Virus record (IMG/VR): IMGVR_UViG_3300046820_002568 | Coordinates: 1-64,000 of that record | Length of the DNA stretch: 64,000 nucleotides | From: a virus | Strand: one strand, 5' to 3' | Part shown: piece by piece, positions 1,275 to 45,877 of the stretch | Position numbering within the stretch: position 1 is the first letter of the stretch | How the letters are laid out: each line of letters starts with the position of its first letter | Position numbers and translations under genes: made by a program | Notes under the pieces: model-generated | Databases searched by the model: none | Told to the model about the DNA's origin: nothing | Seen by the model: only the letters and a program-made list of their open reading frames with translations

Positions 1275-1298
1275 AAAAAAAGGTGGGTTACCCCACCT
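1275..1298 (-). terminator. Intrinsic terminator of the ncRNA-tRNA unit
   Basis: Minus-strand hairpin AGGTGGG-GTAA-CCCACCT (arms 1281-1287 and 1292-1298) with a GNRA loop, followed by six T (1275-1280). It stands 8 bases after the tRNA 3' end and closes the transcript that begins near 2283. Confidence 0.85.
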
Positions 1299-1306
1299 GT
1301 CATTTG

Positions 1307-1379
1307 TTGCGGAAACTGGAATCGAACCAGATGTCTTCAGCTTATGAGACTGACGAGGAAACCATTTCTCCCTTCCACA
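1307..1379 (-). tRNA. tRNA-Met (anticodon CAT)
   Basis: 73 nt without encoded CCA. The 7-bp acceptor stem TGTGGAA/TTCCGCA has one T-G pair. The anticodon arm is TCAGT/GCTGA with loop CTCATAA, placing CAT at 34-36. The T loop is TTCGATT, and G at 17-18 sits in the D loop. Oddities: position 8 is G instead of the nearly universal T, the D stem has an A13-C22 mismatch and the T stem a T49-T65 mismatch. There is no initiator-type run of three G-C pairs above the anticodon loop, so it would be elongator Met or, if lysidine-modified, Ile. It is the 3' part of a longer transcript and needs processing, or it may be a degenerate tRNA-like domain of that RNA. Confidence 0.8.
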
Positions 1380-2283
1380 ATATTAAATTAAACGAAGCCT
1401 GAGATTACAGCTTTGATTGAGTACCTTTAGAGTTATTATTTTTTCTACTCTTATCCACAAGATTTTGTCTTGTATTACTCATTGCCAATTGGTAAGGCCA
1501 ATCAATCCTTGACGATACAACTACTCTCTTACTACTCAGCTCTCTTCGAGAATGCCTTCCCAATTAATCCTTGCGAGATTAGAGGTTTTTCGTAAAAATA
1601 TAGTTCAACTTGGGGTCTCACTATGCTCAGAACATCTCTAAGCTATGTGGGCAACTTCCGTTGTACCGTGATGGACACTTTTCCTTTAATTATTGTTCAT
1701 AATTTTAGATTGTGTCGTGGATGTGTCAGAGTAGTGGTCCACCGTAAGCTCCGTCTCCTTTTGGGCGACGAAATACTAAACTACTCCGTGAGATATCCCT
1801 ATCTCCATACTTTCAGTTTACTTCATAAAGAGACCTTGGTAGGTCATCTTTAGGGGTAGTAGCGACACCACTCGTTCTCTACCTTACCTTTCGGTTTTAA
1901 GTCCCCTTCGGTATTGGAATCCGCAATTGTGTAGTTGGAGCTACATTTCTTACTTGATTCCTATGGGTTATTCTTATTGTTCTTCCGAACTCAACTTGAC
2001 AATCCACTTTGCCAAGTCACCTGACCACTTTCCCTACAGTGTTACCCTCGGTACTAAAGGTCTTGTGATATCCCACTTGTGTACTCGAGTTCAAATTCCC
2101 TTTCGGGTTTTCAAACCGCAACCTCCTCAACACGGGGGAGGTCACTTTATCCTACTTTCGTAGTTTATTTAAGGACCATACACGGCCCATTATCGTTTAT
2201 CAGTTATCATCACCCGAGGGTTACTTTCACTGAATGGATAATCTTACTTTTCAAAGAACTTTTCGGTCATTTCCGAATTGTTT
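1380..2283 (-). ncRNA. Large structured non-coding RNA upstream of a tRNA (GOLLD/ROOL-like arrangement)
   Basis: About 0.9 kb without credible coding sequence, visibly richer in G+C than its surroundings. Minus-strand helices (plus-strand coordinates): 2262-2266/2273-2277; 2044-2051/2214-2221 (long range, 8 bp); 2121-2126/2137-2142; 1994-2001/2010-2017 (8 bp, one G-U); 1930-1934/1941-1945; 1832-1836/1841-1845; 1790-1795/1800-1805; 1752-1758/1764-1770 (one mismatch); 1729-1735/1780-1786; 1652-1655/1660-1663; 1457-1462/1468-1473. Several hairpin loops are GNRA only on the minus strand (GGGA at 1796-1799, GGAA at 1656-1659, GAAA at 1889-1892 and 2101-2104), which fixes the RNA strand. Three tandem promoters lie upstream; a tRNA and a terminator lie downstream. 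Large phage RNAs next to tRNAs (GOLLD, ROOL) are known; membership in either family is not shown here. Confidence 0.75.
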
Positions 2284-2285
2284 TA

Positions 2286-2317
2286 CAAATTTAAGTCAAA
2301 ATTTTCAATCTGTCAAA
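2286..2317 (-). promoter_or_regulatory. Bacteroidetes-type promoter, proximal of three
   Basis: TTTG (2314-2317), 20-base spacer, TAAATTTG (2286-2293) in minus-strand sense. The inferred start is near 2282, just before the first hairpin (2262-2277) of the structured RNA. Its sequence context (TTTTACAAAT on the plus strand) recurs about 99 bases upstream. Confidence 0.75.
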
Positions 2318-2384
2318 TTTTTCTTAAACTTTTTTTTGAGATTCGAGACTTGTATCTTAATCGTTCTCCGTCTCAAATCTTTTA

Positions 2385-2416
2385 CAAATATACGGCTAAT
2401 TTTTCAATCTGCCAAA
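2385..2416 (-). promoter_or_regulatory. Bacteroidetes-type promoter, middle of three
   Basis: TTTG (2413-2416), 20-base spacer, TATATTTG (2385-2392). The flanking string CAAATCTTTTACAAATATAC is shared with the distal copy near 2476-2495, so the promoters look like a tandem duplication. Confidence 0.75.
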
Positions 2417-2486
2417 TTTATTTGTATTTTTTTTTAGATTTAACTTTCCGAGTATCTTTCATCACCTATAGGTGTCAAATCTTTTA

Positions 2487-2517
2487 CAAATATACAACTA
2501 TTTTCTTAAAAATCAAA
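2487..2517 (-). promoter_or_regulatory. Bacteroidetes-type promoter, distal of three
   Basis: TTTG (2514-2517), 19-base spacer, TATATTTG (2487-2494). It overlaps the last codons of the Nudix gene. A small palindrome CACCTATAGGTG lies just downstream at 2463-2474. The three copies are spaced 99 and 102 bases apart. Confidence 0.7.
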
Positions 2518-29970: not shown

Positions 29971-30789
29971 TTAAAGATAATCAAACAAATTTGATGACTC
30001 ATTTCTCAATTTTCTTAGTCCTCTCTCTTTAATTTGTCGTACTCTTTCCTTTGTAAGGTTGAAGTCCTCCCCGATATCTTCGAGTGTTCTTGGCGTTCCT
30101 GACAATCCATAATAGTCCATAATAATCTGTCTTTCACGACTATCAAGTACATCCAAAATCGCCATAAGACCTTCTTTAACTTGTTTGTCACTATTAAAGG
30201 AATGGTCGGGTCTTAGTGAATCCTTATTCTCAATAAGGTCAATCAAAGTATCTCCATCCTCATTAATCTGTGATTCCAAATTAATTACATTTGGTAGGTT
30301 TGCAAATTTACCATCCATAGCATCACCAGTCTTTTCAACACGCTTTCTTTCTTTATGAAGGTCCTGTACAACATTGACTGGAAGTCGAATGGTACGAGAA
30401 TTCTCATTCAAAGACTGAAGAATTGATTGACGAATCCACCACACTGCGTAAGAGATAAATCTCAAATTCTTTGTCCAATCAAAGCTATTTATAGCCCTCA
30501 TAAGTCCAATATTACCCTCTGCAATCAAGTCGGATAAGTCAAGACCTTGGTTTTGGTATTGTTTTGCAATTGTAATTACAAATCGCAAATTACCTTCCAA
30601 TAATTCTCGGTTAATCTCCTCCTTTTCAAAATTGGAAATTTCTCCACTTTGAATTTTCTTTGAGAGTTCCTTTTCCCTTTCAGGTGTCATCACCTTAATA
30701 CGACGAAGTTCTTTCAGATAATACTGAATCTCATCTTGATTAATTGGTGAAGAATTTTTCTCTTGTTTCTCATCCTTTTGAATACTCAT
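29971..30789 (-). CDS. RNA polymerase sigma factor (sigma-70 family, RpoD-like)
   Basis: 272 residues with regions 1.2 (EIQYYLKELRRIKVMTPERE), 2 (LDLSDLIAEGNIGLMRAINS and FISYAVWWIRQSI), 3 (ENSRTIRLPVNVVQDLHKER) and 4 (LEDIGEDFNLTKERVRQIKE), no region 1.1 and a size close to the Bacteroidetes housekeeping sigma (about 290). It looks like an acquired host-type sigma rather than the short T4 gp55 late factor. It would direct host polymerase to phage promoters, possibly the TATTTATA class. Overlaps the upstream gene by 20 bases. Confidence 0.93.
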   Translation of the reverse strand: MSIQKDEKQEKNSSPINQDEIQYYLKELRRIKVMTPEREKELSKKIQSGEISNFEKEEINRELLEGNLRFVITIAKQYQNQGLDLSDLIAEGNIGLMRAINSFDWTKNLRFISYAVWWIRQSILQSLNENSRTIRLPVNVVQDLHKERKRVEKTGDAMDGKFANLPNVINLESQINEDGDTLIDLIENKDSLRPDHSFNSDKQVKEGLMAILDVLDSRERQIIMDYYGLSGTPRTLEDIGEDFNLTKERVRQIKERGLRKLRNESSNLFDYL

Positions 30790-37834: not shown

Positions 37835-40800
37835 GTGAGCGCAATAGTTTGGTATAAATTTTCAGGTTGTTGTAATGGAGAAATATTCCAAACACAAGCA
37901 ACTACCCCACCCGCAGGATTTTCAATTAATGGGGTATATTATCTACAAACAGATACATACATAGGCTGCGCATCATTATTATCAACAGGATTCACAACAA
38001 GTGTTAATGTTTATAATTTAGTTAATTATGATTCAACAGATTATGGTGACTCATCTACTTGCCAAGCATATTATCCTTGTATAGATTACCCAACAATAAC
38101 CCCTACTGATACTCCAGCACCAACACCTACACAAACCGCCACAGTAACTAGAACCACAACACCGGCAATAACTCCCGGTCCAAGTAATTCTCAAAGTGCG
38201 ACCGCAACCCCAACAAAAACTCCAACAAGAACTCCTCAATCAACAGTTACCCCAACTCCAACAAGAACTCCATCAAATTGTCCAGATGTTGGGTTGGATA
38301 TTACCTTAATTTCTGGTAATACTTATGTTAGACTAACAAACCTAACAAACGAATTAATTTATATTTTCGATGCCGATAATTTACCTTATTTATATTTTTT
38401 AATACCTTCAGGTACTACAGATATTATATTATCTCGATTCACAACTGGTGTTATCGGTACCAGTCTTTCAAGTACACTATCTAATTGTATAATTTGTAGA
38501 AGTGCCTATACATCGGAAATTTGCGATTGCTCAGAAATAGTAAATGCCAGCCCTGTACCTACATTAACACCAACAAAAACTCCAACACCTACAAATACAC
38601 CAACTAATACTATAACCCCAACAAATTCAATTACGCCAACTATAACCCCAACAAATTCAATTACGCCAACAAAAACAGTTACACCATCTATAACACCAAC
38701 AAAAACAGTTACACCATCTATAACACCAACAAACACCCCAACAACAACCCCACCATTAACACCATTACCAGCAATTTCACCATCTAACAGTTCAACAAAC
38801 ACCCCAACACCAACAAACACCCAAACACCTAGTTCAACTTATTATCAATATTGCCCAACTAGTAGTTTTTGTATTTTTACAAATAATTCAAACTATTCGC
38901 AATACGACGGAACATACTATAACTATACTTCAACAACCTACAACGATAAGGCTGTTTTTTATTGTGCCAGTTGTTCGTCTCCTTCATTTATTTATTATAA
39001 TTCAGGAGACACTAAATGGATATTATCTGATACAATAGGAGGTGGGGCAATTATATTTGGTCCATCAAATAGTTCTAGTTTATGTCCTGATTTTAACTCA
39101 GGATTCTTTAACACTATTTGTCCAACGCCAACTCCAAGTTATAGTGCAGTTTGTCAAACCTTTGATTTTTCAGCAGATTTTAGTTGTTTTATTACAGGTA
39201 CAACTTCAACTCCAACAATCACGCCAACTTCAACTACAACCCCAACACCTAGTATTACTAATGACCAATGTCCATCTAAATTTATTGTAGTATATGGGAC
39301 AACTTTTAACTACAACCCAATAACTCCAACACCATCAATAACCCCTCCAATAACTTATCAAAATTGTATTATCGATGCTAGTACAACATATGATATATTC
39401 CAAGCAAGTTTTGTTAGTAGTTTTAGTAGAATTCTAAGAAATTGTGCGAGTTCTGTTGAATATGTTGTAAATTATCCGATACCTTTTAATACTGGGGCAA
39501 CATTTAACGCAATTATAAATGGATTAGGTGTATGTGTGACTTATATAGGTGACACATTTAGTCCAGGTATTGACTATTTATCATCTCTTCAAAGTGGAAA
39601 CTTATTTAATTGTAGTTTTTGTTCTCCATTAGTTACACCTAGCGCGAGTTTAACTCCATCTATAACTCCAACTATAACTCCTACAATTTCTCTAACACCT
39701 AGTTTAACATCTTGTTTAAATGTTGGTGTCGACTATTCGTTTTTAACAAGTACCGGATTTGATTCTGTGACATATATGCACAGAATTAAAAAACTTTCAG
39801 GTGGAACATATTTAGTTGCTGGAGATTTTACTTCATACAATTCTTTCCCAGCAAAAGGTTTAGTAAAAATATCTTCATCAGGATTCCCAGTTACAAGTTT
39901 CAATACTTCTAATGGATTTTCTTCATCACCATTACAAACATTTTCACCTTCAGATTTTATAGAACAACCAGATGGTAGAATAGTTTGTTGTGGATATTTC
40001 ACAGAATATAGTGGAGTACCACTAAATTATATTTGTAGATTAAATTCTGACGCAACTATTGACTCTACATTTAGTGCTGGTACAGGATTCAGTGGTTTTG
40101 CTTATACTTTAGGTATTCAATCCGATGGTAAAATAATAGTCGGAGGAGGATTTACTTCATATAATGGTATTAACTGTAACAACATTTGTAGACTTAATAC
40201 TGATGGTACATTTGACTATACTTTTAACTCAGGTGGTACAGGTTTTAATAATTTCGTTAGAGGAGTACACATACTTGAAGATGATTCAATTATTGTTGCG
40301 GGTGGTTTTACAGCCTACAATGAAACCACTTGGTATAGATTAATTAAATTAGATTCAGAAGGTAATATAGATATTACTTTTGGTCAACCTTTAGGTTACA
40401 ACGGTAACATAATGGAATTGTTAGTTTCAAGTATCGGAGAGATTTATGTTTCAGGATACTTTACAGAATATAATGGTACCGCAATTCCTTCATACATATC
40501 AAAATTAGATACTTTTGGGGGAATAGATGTTACATTTTTCTCGAACATTGGCTCAGGATTATCAATTGCTTATAGTAATTCAATAGTTGAGGATGTTAAT
40601 GGGGATATTTTATTATTCCCAACTTTAGGTTCTACTTTTAATGGTGTTAACTATAATGGTATTTTGAAAATATCTTCAAGTGGAATTGTTAATGGTCAAA
40701 TTAATGCATATCCTGGTTTTAATGGGAATGTGTCGGATGCTATAATTACAAATGAAAATAAAATAATTTGTATTGGTAATTTTACATCATATAATACTCA

Positions 40801-43800
40801 ATCAAGAAATGGAATTACTGGATTATATCCATGTCAGTCAAATGTTACAACATCGACTCCAACACCATCTCCAACTCAATTGTGCCCATTCGTAACTAAT
40901 ACAATACAATTATCAGGACAACCAAGCTCAATTGTTTTTGACACATTAAATGAATTTATTTATGTTGCATATGATAGTGGAAATTATGTATCAGTTTTAA
41001 ATAAAAATTTTGTAAGTTTATTTAATATAACCACAACTAGTTTTGTAGAGTCAATGTCTTTTGATTCTAATAACAACAAAATTTATATACCAGAATTTTA
41101 CACTGGTATTGTAAATATTTTTAATACATCTACTTTGTCTTTAGAGGCCCCAATTACGACTTATGTAGGGGGTTATCCTACATCGTCAGTGCATGATTCT
41201 AATAATTCATTAGTATGTGTAGTATATTCTGATAATAGTACAATATCATTTATTAATACTTTTTCTCAAACTGTAATTGATACTTTAGTTATACCAAATA
41301 CCAATAGAGGAAAAATTACATTAGACCCAAATAACAATGAGTTATACATAACTAATAGAGGTGGGTCAGCATATACTAATGTGTATGTTGTAAATACTGT
41401 AAATAAAACTTTAGATTATACAATATCTGCAGGTACCGGGAATAATTTAGATATACTATATAATAGTAATAATTCATATGTTTATGTTTTAGATGGTGAC
41501 TCAGGTAAAATCTGGTATATTGATACCTCAACTAAAACAGTACTAGGTTCGGTAAATTTATCATATTCAGGTTCTTTATTCTCTATGATATATGATGTAA
41601 ACAAAAATTACATTTATATCTCATCAAATGATGGTAAAGATATGATTTCTGTTGATTGCTCAACTAATACTCAAGTGGGTACTTTATATAATGCGGCTGA
41701 AGGCGGATATGTTAGTGCTGGAATGGCATATAAACAATCGAATGGTGAAATTTTTTATGGGTCAACATTAAATTCGAACATTAATGTTATGTGTACTAAT
41801 TTTACACCAATACCATCCTCAACTCCAACATCCACACCAACACCAACTCTGACTCAAACACCTTCAATTACACCTTCATCGTCTACACAAATATTATCTT
41901 GTCCATATTTAATCACTTCATTTATTGAATCTCAAAATATTAGGACAATAACCTCTGACTTATATAATAATTATATTTGGATAATCGATAATCAAGGTAA
42001 TCAGATATATTATAACAATTCTTATAACTTGGTTGGTTATGGTTCATTCTCTATTTCAACGGGTGTTACTTCATCCGTTTTTGATAGTCTAAACAATAAG
42101 GTATTTATTGGTGGATATAACAAGATAACAAGTTTCAATGTAACATCTTACCCATTTGGTGTTGGTTCAATAATTAGTTTACCCTCATCTAATATAGTAG
42201 ATTTAGCAGTAAACCAAAACTACTTAGTTGCTGTTGATGATTTATTATCAGGGGTAACAATATTTGACGCATATAGTGAAACACAGATAGGAAGTATAGT
42301 TTTAAATAACATAACTTCTGATAGTAAAGTAGTTTTCGACACTAATTTAAATTCGGCATACATTTGTAATTCAAGTACGGCGGAAATTTTTGTAGTTGCT
42401 CCAAATACTTACACCTTAACCAATACTATTATAATTGGTACATCATTTAATTTAGATTTAGTTTATGTTCCGATATTGGGTTACATTTATGTATTAGAAC
42501 AAAATTACGGATTATGGTATTTTGATTGTTCATCTTTATTAGTATTAGGTAGTATACCTTTGACTTTTACATCATCATTAGATTCTATATCTTACGACCC
42601 TAATAATTATTTGATTTATGTTTCAAGTAATGGTGGCTCTGACTTAATAGTAGTTGATGTTGTTACTAATTCTCAATTAACAACTAAATCTAACATAGGT
42701 TCTTTTACTGGTGGTACAGTAATAAATCATTTTGATACAATTAATAATTCAATATACATTTCAGAATGGAGTAGTTCGACTATTTCAGTTTTATGTACTG
42801 ACACTACAATAATATACCCAACCGTAACTCCGACAACAACTCCAACAACAACTCCAACAACAACTCCAACATCTAGTCAAACTCCAACACCTACTGTTAG
42901 TCAAACTCCAACTATAACACCAACAAAAACAACCACTCCAACTATAACGCCAACAACTTCAATTACTCCAACTATAACCCCCAGTCCAATATGTCCTTTT
43001 GAAGTTGGTTCAATTAATTTATCAGTATTTTCAGGGTTATGTGCAACCACAGGAGCATTAACAGTTTTTGCCGACCAATCAAGTTATGTATACATAACAT
43101 CATTAGATTGTGGTTTGTTTGTTTATAATTCAGGTCAAACACTTGTTTATTCGGCACAATCAGCAAATTATCAAGGAATTAATTCAATATCATATAATTC
43201 ATTAAGTGCTAATACATATTTAGTTAATCAGAGTCAGTCAATAATTGAGGTTTTAGATGTATCATCGTTTAGTTCAGTTACAACTATTTCAACTTCAATA
43301 ACTAATCCTTTTAAATCTTCTTTTGATTCATATAATAATATATTGGTAGTTATTGATGGTATAAATAATGAGATTGAATTCATAGATGATATTTCATACT
43401 CATCTTTAGGGACATCATCCGCTTCTACTTACTATCAAGGTGCTATTGCTTACGATTCTGTAAATTATTTACATTATGTTGTTGGTAGAACAAATGATAC
43501 AATTTCAATTATTAATTCTAATTTACAAGCTGAAGAATATACAATTACAAGTGTTGGTGAAACGGGTCGAAATGTTGACATTTTATACAACCCTGTTAAT
43601 TCAAAAATGTATGTTTTAACTAATGGTAGAAGTGTGAGTGTAATAGATACTACATCTCAATCCGTTAGTACTGTAATATCAATTAGTAGTTACAATGGTG
43701 TTAATCTTTCTATGACATATGATTCAATTCAAGACTACATTTATGTTTCTAATAGAAGTTCTACGGGTAGCTATGGATTCATAACAATAGATTGTTTAAC

Positions 43801-45877
43801 TAATAGTGTAATAGGATTTGACGAAGGATTTTATAATGGTTCAGTTAATTCAATAATAGAATTCGATTCAATTTCAAATAAGATATACTATTTGTATAAT
43901 GGTGTAAGTTCTATAGATATTATTTGTCCTTTCTTTATACCACCTAGTCCGACTCCAACTCCAACAAATACACCAACACCTTCAGTAACTGCAACAATTA
44001 CCCCAACAATGAGTCAAACACCTACTAACACACCAACACCTTCAGTTACCCCATCGATTACTGCAAGTATAACTCCAACTATGACAATGACTCCAAGTCC
44101 ATCTCCTTACGCAGTTTCAGCATTTGTAAGTGTTTGGTCAGGTTCGTCAATAACACTTCCATATATCGCATCTGGAACATATAGTGGAACAATTGATTGG
44201 GGTGATGGTTCAACTTCGGCTAACACATATGCTAATAGAACTAAGACCTACTCAACTAGCGGAATATATACTGTAATAATTAATGGAACCGTTACAGGAT
44301 TCAATTTTGGTACTGTTACAACAAGTAGATTAAATATAAGAGAGATTAAACAATGGGGTAATGTAAGAGGCGCTTCGACAAGTAATTCTACTATGTTCTT
44401 TAATTGTACTAACCTTGTTTTGACTGGGGTTACTGATACTATAAATCTATCAGGTATTACAATGCTCACCTCAATGTTTAGACAATGTTCTTCAATTACT
44501 ACCATAAATAACATTAACAGTTGGAATACTTCAGGTGTTACAAATATGGCATCAATGTTTTACTTGGCAACAGGATTCAATGATAATATTAGCAATTGGG
44601 ATGTTTCAAATGTGACTAATTTTGGAGATACTTTTAGACAGGCAACATCTTTCAATCAACCAATTGGTTCTTGGGATACTTCATCAGCAACCTCATTATT
44701 GAGGACTTTTTATAACGCAACATCATTTAATCAATCTCTTAGTGGATGGAATACTTCAAATGTTACAAATTTACAACAAGCTTTCGCCGGTGCAACTAGT
44801 TTCAATCAACCTATAGGAAATTGGGACACTTCGAGTGTAACCAATATGGATAGTACTTTCTATGTCGCATCCTCATTCAATCAACCATTGAGTGGATGGA
44901 ATACTTCAAATGTTACAGATATTTCTTTCATGTTCTCTCAAAGTAATTTCAATCAAAATATCAACAACTGGGATGTATCAAATGTTACTAATTTCCAATC
45001 GACTTTTAGCTCTAGTCCGTTTAATCAACCTTTAAGTGGGTGGAACACATCTGCAGCAACAAGCTTATATGCAATGTTCTCCGGAACAATTAATTTCAAC
45101 CAACCTATTGGAAACTGGGATACTTCAAATGTTACAAATATGGGTTGGGTGTTCCACACACTAGCATCTAACCACACATTTAATCAGCCTCTTAGCGGAT
45201 GGAACACTTCAAAGGTAACATCATTATATAGAACATTTAAGGGTGTATCAGGATTCAATCAAAATATTGGAAATTGGGATACTTCAAAAGTGACTAATTT
45301 CCAAGAAACATTTACTAATACATCATTTAATAATGGTGGTAGTTCATCTATAAGTGGATGGACAACTTCCGCAGCCACTACAATGTATGGAATGTTCTTA
45401 AATTCAGATTTCAATCAACCTATTGGAAACTGGAATGTTTCAAATGTTACAAATATGAATGGTGTGTTCCAACAAACTCCATTTAATCAATCAATTAGTG
45501 GGTGGGATGTATCTAATGTTACAAACATGGATGCAATATTTGCACTTTCATCGTTCAACCAAAACATTAACAATTGGGATGTTTCAAATGTTACATCTAT
45601 GAATAGTATGTTTGAGGACGCTAACTCATTCAACCAACCGTTAAGTGGATGGAATGTATCTAATGTTACCGATATGACTCAAATGTTGGAAAATACATCA
45701 GTTAGTACAATTAATTATGACAACTTATTAATATCTTGGTCAGGTTTAACATTAACATCAGGCGTTACTTTTGGTGTTAATGGTTTAACATACACCTTGT
45801 CAGGTCAAGGAGGAGCAGCAAGAAGTTACATACAATCGGCATATACTTGGACATTTGTAGGAGATACTGGTATTTAA
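37835..45877 (+). CDS. Giant modular fibre/adhesin, 2680 residues
   Basis: Start is GTG (37835), one base after the preceding stop. Modules by approximate residue: CCNG-type N-terminal domain (1-90); Pro/Thr linkers of TPTxTPT type (90-150, 245-340, 445-465, 610-625); a delta-60-like repeat propeller (632-1000, with units such as ICRLNSDATIDSTFSAG and SDGKIIVGGGFTSYNG); three YVTN-like propellers separated by Pro/Thr linkers (1020-1320, 1355-1655, 1720-2030, with SGKIWYIDTSTKTVLGS); a PKD-like domain with TIDWGDGST (about 2095-2155); and BspA/DUF285 repeats (2228-2620, FNQPIGNWDTSNVTNM). No enzyme motif. It is probably a host-recognition fibre. It stands alone on the plus strand opposite the other fibre genes. 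Confidence 0.85.
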   Translation: MSAIVWYKFSGCCNGEIFQTQATTPPAGFSINGVYYLQTDTYIGCASLLSTGFTTSVNVYNLVNYDSTDYGDSSTCQAYYPCIDYPTITPTDTPAPTPTQTATVTRTTTPAITPGPSNSQSATATPTKTPTRTPQSTVTPTPTRTPSNCPDVGLDITLISGNTYVRLTNLTNELIYIFDADNLPYLYFLIPSGTTDIILSRFTTGVIGTSLSSTLSNCIICRSAYTSEICDCSEIVNASPVPTLTPTKTPTPTNTPTNTITPTNSITPTITPTNSITPTKTVTPSITPTKTVTPSITPTNTPTTTPPLTPLPAISPSNSSTNTPTPTNTQTPSSTYYQYCPTSSFCIFTNNSNYSQYDGTYYNYTSTTYNDKAVFYCASCSSPSFIYYNSGDTKWILSDTIGGGAIIFGPSNSSSLCPDFNSGFFNTICPTPTPSYSAVCQTFDFSADFSCFITGTTSTPTITPTSTTTPTPSITNDQCPSKFIVVYGTTFNYNPITPTPSITPPITYQNCIIDASTTYDIFQASFVSSFSRILRNCASSVEYVVNYPIPFNTGATFNAIINGLGVCVTYIGDTFSPGIDYLSSLQSGNLFNCSFCSPLVTPSASLTPSITPTITPTISLTPSLTSCLNVGVDYSFLTSTGFDSVTYMHRIKKLSGGTYLVAGDFTSYNSFPAKGLVKISSSGFPVTSFNTSNGFSSSPLQTFSPSDFIEQPDGRIVCCGYFTEYSGVPLNYICRLNSDATIDSTFSAGTGFSGFAYTLGIQSDGKIIVGGGFTSYNGINCNNICRLNTDGTFDYTFNSGGTGFNNFVRGVHILEDDSIIVAGGFTAYNETTWYRLIKLDSEGNIDITFGQPLGYNGNIMELLVSSIGEIYVSGYFTEYNGTAIPSYISKLDTFGGIDVTFFSNIGSGLSIAYSNSIVEDVNGDILLFPTLGSTFNGVNYNGILKISSSGIVNGQINAYPGFNGNVSDAIITNENKIICIGNFTSYNTQSRNGITGLYPCQSNVTTSTPTPSPTQLCPFVTNTIQLSGQPSSIVFDTLNEFIYVAYDSGNYVSVLNKNFVSLFNITTTSFVESMSFDSNNNKIYIPEFYTGIVNIFNTSTLSLEAPITTYVGGYPTSSVHDSNNSLVCVVYSDNSTISFINTFSQTVIDTLVIPNTNRGKITLDPNNNELYITNRGGSAYTNVYVVNTVNKTLDYTISAGTGNNLDILYNSNNSYVYVLDGDSGKIWYIDTSTKTVLGSVNLSYSGSLFSMIYDVNKNYIYISSNDGKDMISVDCSTNTQVGTLYNAAEGGYVSAGMAYKQSNGEIFYGSTLNSNINVMCTNFTPIPSSTPTSTPTPTLTQTPSITPSSSTQILSCPYLITSFIESQNIRTITSDLYNNYIWIIDNQGNQIYYNNSYNLVGYGSFSISTGVTSSVFDSLNNKVFIGGYNKITSFNVTSYPFGVGSIISLPSSNIVDLAVNQNYLVAVDDLLSGVTIFDAYSETQIGSIVLNNITSDSKVVFDTNLNSAYICNSSTAEIFVVAPNTYTLTNTIIIGTSFNLDLVYVPILGYIYVLEQNYGLWYFDCSSLLVLGSIPLTFTSSLDSISYDPNNYLIYVSSNGGSDLIVVDVVTNSQLTTKSNIGSFTGGTVINHFDTINNSIYISEWSSSTISVLCTDTTIIYPTVTPTTTPTTTPTTTPTSSQTPTPTVSQTPTITPTKTTTPTITPTTSITPTITPSPICPFEVGSINLSVFSGLCATTGALTVFADQSSYVYITSLDCGLFVYNSGQTLVYSAQSANYQGINSISYNSLSANTYLVNQSQSIIEVLDVSSFSSVTTISTSITNPFKSSFDSYNNILVVIDGINNEIEFIDDISYSSLGTSSASTYYQGAIAYDSVNYLHYVVGRTNDTISIINSNLQAEEYTITSVGETGRNVDILYNPVNSKMYVLTNGRSVSVIDTTSQSVSTVISISSYNGVNLSMTYDSIQDYIYVSNRSSTGSYGFITIDCLTNSVIGFDEGFYNGSVNSIIEFDSISNKIYYLYNGVSSIDIICPFFIPPSPTPTPTNTPTPSVTATITPTMSQTPTNTPTPSVTPSITASITPTMTMTPSPSPYAVSAFVSVWSGSSITLPYIASGTYSGTIDWGDGSTSANTYANRTKTYSTSGIYTVIINGTVTGFNFGTVTTSRLNIREIKQWGNVRGASTSNSTMFFNCTNLVLTGVTDTINLSGITMLTSMFRQCSSITTINNINSWNTSGVTNMASMFYLATGFNDNISNWDVSNVTNFGDTFRQATSFNQPIGSWDTSSATSLLRTFYNATSFNQSLSGWNTSNVTNLQQAFAGATSFNQPIGNWDTSSVTNMDSTFYVASSFNQPLSGWNTSNVTDISFMFSQSNFNQNINNWDVSNVTNFQSTFSSSPFNQPLSGWNTSAATSLYAMFSGTINFNQPIGNWDTSNVTNMGWVFHTLASNHTFNQPLSGWNTSKVTSLYRTFKGVSGFNQNIGNWDTSKVTNFQETFTNTSFNNGGSSSISGWTTSAATTMYGMFLNSDFNQPIGNWNVSNVTNMNGVFQQTPFNQSISGWDVSNVTNMDAIFALSSFNQNINNWDVSNVTSMNSMFEDANSFNQPLSGWNVSNVTDMTQMLENTSVSTINYDNLLISWSGLTLTSGVTFGVNGLTYTLSGQGGAARSYIQSAYTWTFVGDTGI
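44520..45700 (+). repeat. Tandem BspA/DUF285 coding repeats
   Basis: About 16 units of 23-26 codons within the adhesin, with consensus SFNQPLSGWNTSNVTNM. DNA copies differ at many third positions, so the repeats are old or diversifying rather than a recent amplification. In bacterial and mycoplasma surface proteins these repeats bind extracellular partners. Confidence 0.85.

Follow-up and report, generated by a model that had tools for sequence, protein, structure and literature searches.

The record IMGVR_UViG_3300046820_002568 is a linear virus contig (a phage genome) of 139,882 bp. The stretch of DNA analysed here, referred to as the window, comprises its first 64,000 nucleotides. Between a small ORF on one side and a NUDIX gene on the other, the minus strand of the window carries, in this order, three promoters, a gene-poor RNA region of about 0.9 kb, a tRNA-Met(CAT) and a terminator. 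The elements of the unit are as follows.

2487-2517, minus strand: promoter P1, TTTG-N19-TATATTTG, of the Bacteroidota sigma-A type (pattern scan).
2385-2416, minus strand: promoter P2, TTTG-N20-TATATTTG (pattern scan).
2286-2317, minus strand: promoter P3, TTTG-N20-TAAATTTG (pattern scan).
2262-2277, minus strand: leader hairpin UUCGG-AAAUGA-CCGAA at the boxB position.
2251-2259, minus strand: boxA-like element GTTCTTTGA.
1789-2243, minus strand: GOLLD 5' domain, assigned by homology and covariation.
1396-1788, minus strand: GOLLD 3' domain (RF02032 positions 1-416).
2079-2183, minus strand: PK1, a pseudoknot-type pairing of 2183-2179 with 2083-2079 (GUGUA/UACAC).
1671-1742, minus strand: PK3, pairing of 1742-1737 with 1676-1671.
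1481-1655, minus strand: PK2, pairing of 1655-1650 with 1486-1481.
1565-1580, minus strand: hairpin equated with L21a of the solved GOLLD by Rfam alignment position, with a self-complementary GC at 1574-1573 (bridge B8).
1306-1379, minus strand: tRNA-Met(CAT), initiator-like but divergent, the sole tRNA match in the 139,882-bp record.
1275-1298, minus strand: intrinsic terminator, a G+C-rich hairpin (1298-1281) with a T run.

A preliminary description of this DNA had reported three tandem host-type promoters about 100 bases apart, some 0.9 kb without a credible gene and a tRNA-Met(CAT) followed by a terminator. This layout is confirmed. The promoters are spaced by 101 and 99 bases, no ORF in the interval 1396-2280 exceeds 78 aa, and the tRNA (1379-1306) precedes the hairpin and T run (1298-1281). 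A protein-coding reading of the interval was rejected on account of the missing long ORF, indels of variable length and dense covariation. Elsewhere, the window encodes an N6/N4 DNA methylase (Pfam PF01555; 6644-7570, minus strand) and a 2680-aa ORF (37835-45877, plus strand) in which threonine/proline-rich tracts separate repeated domains; its product probably belongs to the virion or serves in adhesion.

To identify the RNA, the window was searched against Rfam with cmscan. Segment 1788-1396 (minus strand) matches the GOLLD model (RF02032) with 294.9 bits (E 2.5e-83), well above the gathering cut-off of 150 bits, and the match is complete from model positions 1 to 416. RF02032 covers the 3' part of GOLLD only, and the 5' half of the RNA has no Rfam match. 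No ROOL was found in the whole window at gathering thresholds, nor at the locus up to E = 10. Other traits of the family are present as well: a conserved 3' domain follows a less conserved, structured 5' domain, the total length exceeds 800 nt, the RNA lies in a phage genome and the tRNA-Met is 17 nt downstream. We thus assign the minus-strand RNA to the known GOLLD family as a full-length member. The preliminary description had called for an Rfam search and left membership in GOLLD or ROOL undecided, favouring an undescribed system; the search speaks for GOLLD and not for ROOL, and the idea of a new class gives way to a match with the entire 416-position GOLLD model.

Compared with env-38 GOLLD, solved by cryo-EM as a 14-mer (PMC12286853), the RNA shares the full 3'-domain match, the succession of 5' and 3' domains, a size of about 0.85-0.9 kb, location in a phage genome, a tRNA-Met neighbour and a self-complementary loop of the L21a type. 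It differs in having no tRNA in the linker and in being preceded by a covarying hairpin, a boxA-like leader and tandem Bacteroidota promoters. ROOL is likewise a large phage RNA found near tRNAs and forms an RNA cage (PMC12286853), but its Rfam model has no match here.

Relatives were gathered with three exact DNA patterns inside the RNA, none of which contains the GTTCTTT element discussed below, and the loci obtained were then searched with the window RNA; they are not a random sample. Altogether, 291 loci matched, 176 of them nearly full length, and 91 were left after removal of copies more than 93% identical. The relatives' RNAs measure 869-938 nt and, in a reduced set of 51, are 58-82% identical to the window copy. 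Near-full-length matches of such number, length and identity indicate that both GOLLD domains are homologous across the set. The full-length RNA was absent from the phage isolates in the 'phages' collection, and one scan of genome contigs for host-genome copies returned only a Mycobacterium. Two uncultured megaphage records, LR745206.1 (L004, 634,780 bp) and LR756502.1 (642,428 bp), share the 5' domain. A viral contig (L317) carries GOLLD (322 bits), a tmRNA (117 bits) and several tRNAs.

The comparative evidence for RNA structure is far stronger than the evidence from folding energy (-140.6 kcal/mol for segment 1789-2280, z = -4.1). In the alignment of 51 sequences, the nested structure comprises 190 pairs, 150 of which show double changes, and mutual information added three pairings outside it. 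The final structure consists of 199 pairs in 40 helix segments; double changes occur in 160 of the pairs, and 96.6% of cells are paired. None of 500 shuffles reached this level, and sliding the partners by 1-3 columns lowers pairing to 38-44%. All cells are paired in PK1 (100%; two pairs with double changes); values for PK3 are 99.3% with double changes in five of six pairs, and for PK2, counting five of its six pairs, 99.6% with double changes in four. The Rfam model also contains a long-range helix, here joining about 1667-1660 with 1514-1521. By this alignment, homology and structure extend to the 5' domain, which lies outside the Rfam model; this domain begins with a variable-tip stem (about 2243-2190) followed by a conserved core. 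The preliminary description had proposed a structured RNA with many helices and a long-range pairing and had named covariation as the test; both the structure and the covariation are found. A helix proposed by RNAalifold to close the RNA (columns 54-58 with 1124-1129, GTTCTTT with the 3' AAAG) was left out of the count because both sides are invariant or nearly so and because GTTCTTT also occurs in tRNA arrays lacking GOLLD.

Very few RNAs in nature are known to build a cage, and GOLLD is among them. In the solved structure, L21a pairs with itself between the half-shells, switching between GC and CG (PMC12286853). Judging from its position in the Rfam alignment, hairpin 1580-1565 would correspond to L21a. 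The dinucleotide at this loop is self-complementary in 91 of 91 relatives, being GC in most, CG in 13 and AU in one. Because the self-complementary loop is kept throughout, homo-oligomeric assembly appears to be the best-supported mode of action. Its conservation is evidence for homo-oligomerisation in this branch that does not depend on the published set, and cage formation by the window copy may be expected. The loops equated with L21a and L21b (1580-1538, minus strand) mostly switch together among the 91 relatives (73 GCAA/GGCA, 11 TCGAA/CGCAA, few mixed), which looks like two interface types.

The promoters were recognized with the Bacteroidota consensus (PMC7366714 and PMC9723704). The window contains 15 sites of the form TTTG-N19/20-TAnnTTTG, whereas Markov sequences give 3.5 +/- 1.8; among 100 randomised windows, none had three such sites within 250 nt. 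The host type ascribed to these tandem promoters in the preliminary description is borne out, and the promoters are conserved: in 85 relatives, TAnnTTTG averages 2.24 copies per 460 nt upstream of the RNA versus 0.38 elsewhere in the same loci, with at least two upstream copies in 70. Most of these relatives have one such copy 13-15 nt ahead of the 5' end as defined by homology. With the -7 box at -12 to -5 (PMC9723704), the geometry of P3 predicts a transcript start at about 2281. Promoter type, the scarcity of Shine-Dalgarno cores (found before only 2 of 38 ORFs) and a primase closest to that of Flavobacterium phage immuto all point, indirectly, to a host among the Bacteroidota. Among the phage's own genes is one for a sigma-70 factor comprising regions 1.2, 2 and 4 (29971-30789, minus strand), which could serve the Bacteroidota-type promoters.

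The new part of the locus is an rRNA-style control region; its leader hairpin and boxA-like GTTCTTTGA had been missed in the preliminary description. BoxA is a Nus-factor antitermination signal. Its gammaproteobacterial consensus is GYTCTTTAANA (PMC5725501), and in rRNA leaders boxB and then boxA come just after the promoter (PMC10250234). At our locus, the element has the form GTTCTTTGA that is also read in Bacteroidota rRNA leaders (below), and the hairpin occupies the boxB position directly upstream of it, just after the promoter. GTTCTTT is present in all 91 relatives, against a background of 0.016 per 120 nt. The hairpin is found in 66 of 89 relatives versus 17% of shuffles, in the form of many different stems that vary by compensation, and is missing in about a quarter.

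For comparison, six Bacteroidota rRNA leaders were read from plasmid records. Exact GTTCTTTGA occurs in three (Parabacteroides, Persicobacter and Aureibacter); Flammeovirga has a boxA with one extra T, and in Flavobacterium and Chryseobacterium the boxA is diverged or not recognisable. The first three resemble the phage unit in the short hairpin and the GTTCTTTGA placed before a long structured RNA and, in Parabacteroides and Persicobacter, in the tandem TAnnTTTG promoters. In addition, bacterial rRNA operons often include tRNAs (PMC10250234). The phage unit differs in being a phage gene whose product is GOLLD rather than rRNA, in the leader-boxA distance and in the surrounding sequences. No boxA was found in the GOLLD loci of Acinetobacter phage Herod and a Mycobacterium, so the element is not general to the family. 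In the searchable literature, nothing relevant was found on GOLLD together with boxA, Nus factors or Bacteroidota.

The reverse test consisted in scanning all viral contigs for a promoter end followed by GTTCTTTGAAA. The scan returned GOLLD loci as well as others, and the count was restricted to GOLLD-free sites followed by 400 nt or more of sequence. As many as 13 of 15 promoter-bearing boxA sites are followed by tRNA genes, as against 0 of 16 promoterless ones (p 5e-7; after deduplication 9/11 versus 0/15, p 1.8e-5). At a fourteenth promoter-bearing site, a weak tRNA was missed by ARAGORN. The promoter-boxA leader is therefore a mark of units that make stable RNA, and this argues against its role in GOLLD being structural only. 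Arrays of phage tRNA genes headed by promoter and GTTCTTTGAAA, with no GOLLD at the site, are those of L305, L306, L309, L310, L321, L324, L328, L339, L341, L345, L352, L353 and L358.

The identity of the neighbouring tRNA is strongly biased. Directly beside GOLLD, the tRNA is Met in 25 of 28 cases, versus 31 of 221 elsewhere in the same loci (p 8e-16), and it may sit 3' of GOLLD, as in the window, or 5', as in LR745206. Crude classing of tRNA-Met by pairwise identity proved noisy and position-based features were used instead, namely an R11:Y24 pair, a weak 1:72 and G-C pairs at 29-31:39-41 as marks of initiators. The elongator-type Y11:R24 pair occurs in none of the 25 adjacent copies as opposed to 19 of 31 other Met(CAT) tRNAs (p 4e-7), and a Watson-Crick 1:72 pair is missing in 20 of the 25. 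While the relatives mostly fit the initiator features, the window tRNA has A11:U24 but also a U1-A72 pair and a U31.G39 wobble; its initiator-like character is moderately supported. One copy is 85% identical to an E. coli tRNA-Met that occurs as three tandem copies between mltA and amiC, which we take to be metZWV, the initiator tRNA.

Several other readings were weighed against these data. That the RNA represents a new class, or a ROOL, is hardly credible: its 5' half indeed gives no Rfam match, as Rfam models the GOLLD 3' part only, but GOLLD is matched over the full model, ROOL is unmatched, and the two-domain layout and lengths resemble those of the solved GOLLD. If GOLLD it is, GTTCTTTGA could still be a structural piece and not a boxA. 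RNAalifold pairs its UCUUU with an invariant AAAG near the 3' end, and since this helix is invariant on both strands the alignment cannot reject the pairing. By the same token the helix brings no covariation, unlike nearly all others; moreover, the element is also present in rRNA leaders, and the promoter-hairpin-GTTCTTTGAAA leader precedes phage tRNA arrays devoid of GOLLD. A structural GTTCTTTGA is therefore an unlikely explanation.

P3 might be the sole working promoter, with P1 and P2 having decayed or arisen by chance in A+T-rich sequence; the conserved 5' end is predicted by P3 alone, and the copies further upstream differ between relatives in number and position. Yet chance produced no triple in the randomised windows, and the excess of TAnnTTTG in the relatives, with two or more copies in most, makes this rather doubtful. 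Much less probable is that the task of the unit is to deliver an initiator-like tRNA, GOLLD being a carrier or processing scaffold. The Met bias and the absence of the elongator-type 11:24 pair from every adjacent copy would fit this proposal; however, no adjacent tRNA was recognised in 57 of the 82 relatives that could be tested, and conservation of the RNA fold is strong.

Our preferred reading, which we regard as probable, is that a Bacteroidota phage transcribes GOLLD from this locus as a unit controlled like a host rRNA operon, and that the RNA self-assembles into a hollow multimer. Tandem sigma-A promoters, leader hairpin and boxA would together exert this control. The putative boxA would recruit NusB-S10 and other Nus factors, allowing polymerase to traverse some 900 nt of structured, untranslated RNA and escape termination by Rho. 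Cleavage by RNase P at the 5' end of tRNA-Met would produce the trimmed 3' end of GOLLD, and transcription would stop at the intrinsic terminator. The RNA would then fold, its 5' domain as a cap and its 3' domain as a ring, and assemble into the hollow GOLLD multimer. Both Nus-factor binding to the leader and RNase P processing of the GOLLD-tRNA-Met transcript are inferred steps. Against the model, a GOLLD was reported to be dispensable for phage production in Lactobacillus brevis (cited in PMC7567579) and another to be weakly expressed in a Mycobacterium (PMC6582537).

A broader version, for which we see the chances as evenly balanced, is that of a pseudo-rRNA operon. Here host antitermination machinery would make both the cage and an initiator-like tRNA from a leader shared with tRNA arrays, linking GOLLD to ribosome or translation takeover. 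That the cage itself acts on translation is a weakly supported guess, prompted by the co-transcription of GOLLD with an initiator-like tRNA.

In conclusion, two features merit further attention: the control region with its rRNA-like layout and the bias towards an initiator-like tRNA. A control region resembling that of host rRNA genes suggests how such phages could make much GOLLD: it would give a reason for a 0.9-kb untranslated RNA being made in quantity and names a concrete host partner, NusB-S10 and the Nus complex. The strong tRNA-Met bias, with its initiator-like character, points towards the initiation of translation. The poorly known GOLLD 5' domain can now be studied in a new, large alignment of members from Bacteroidota phages, and searching for promoter and boxA together offers a way to other stable-RNA units in phages.
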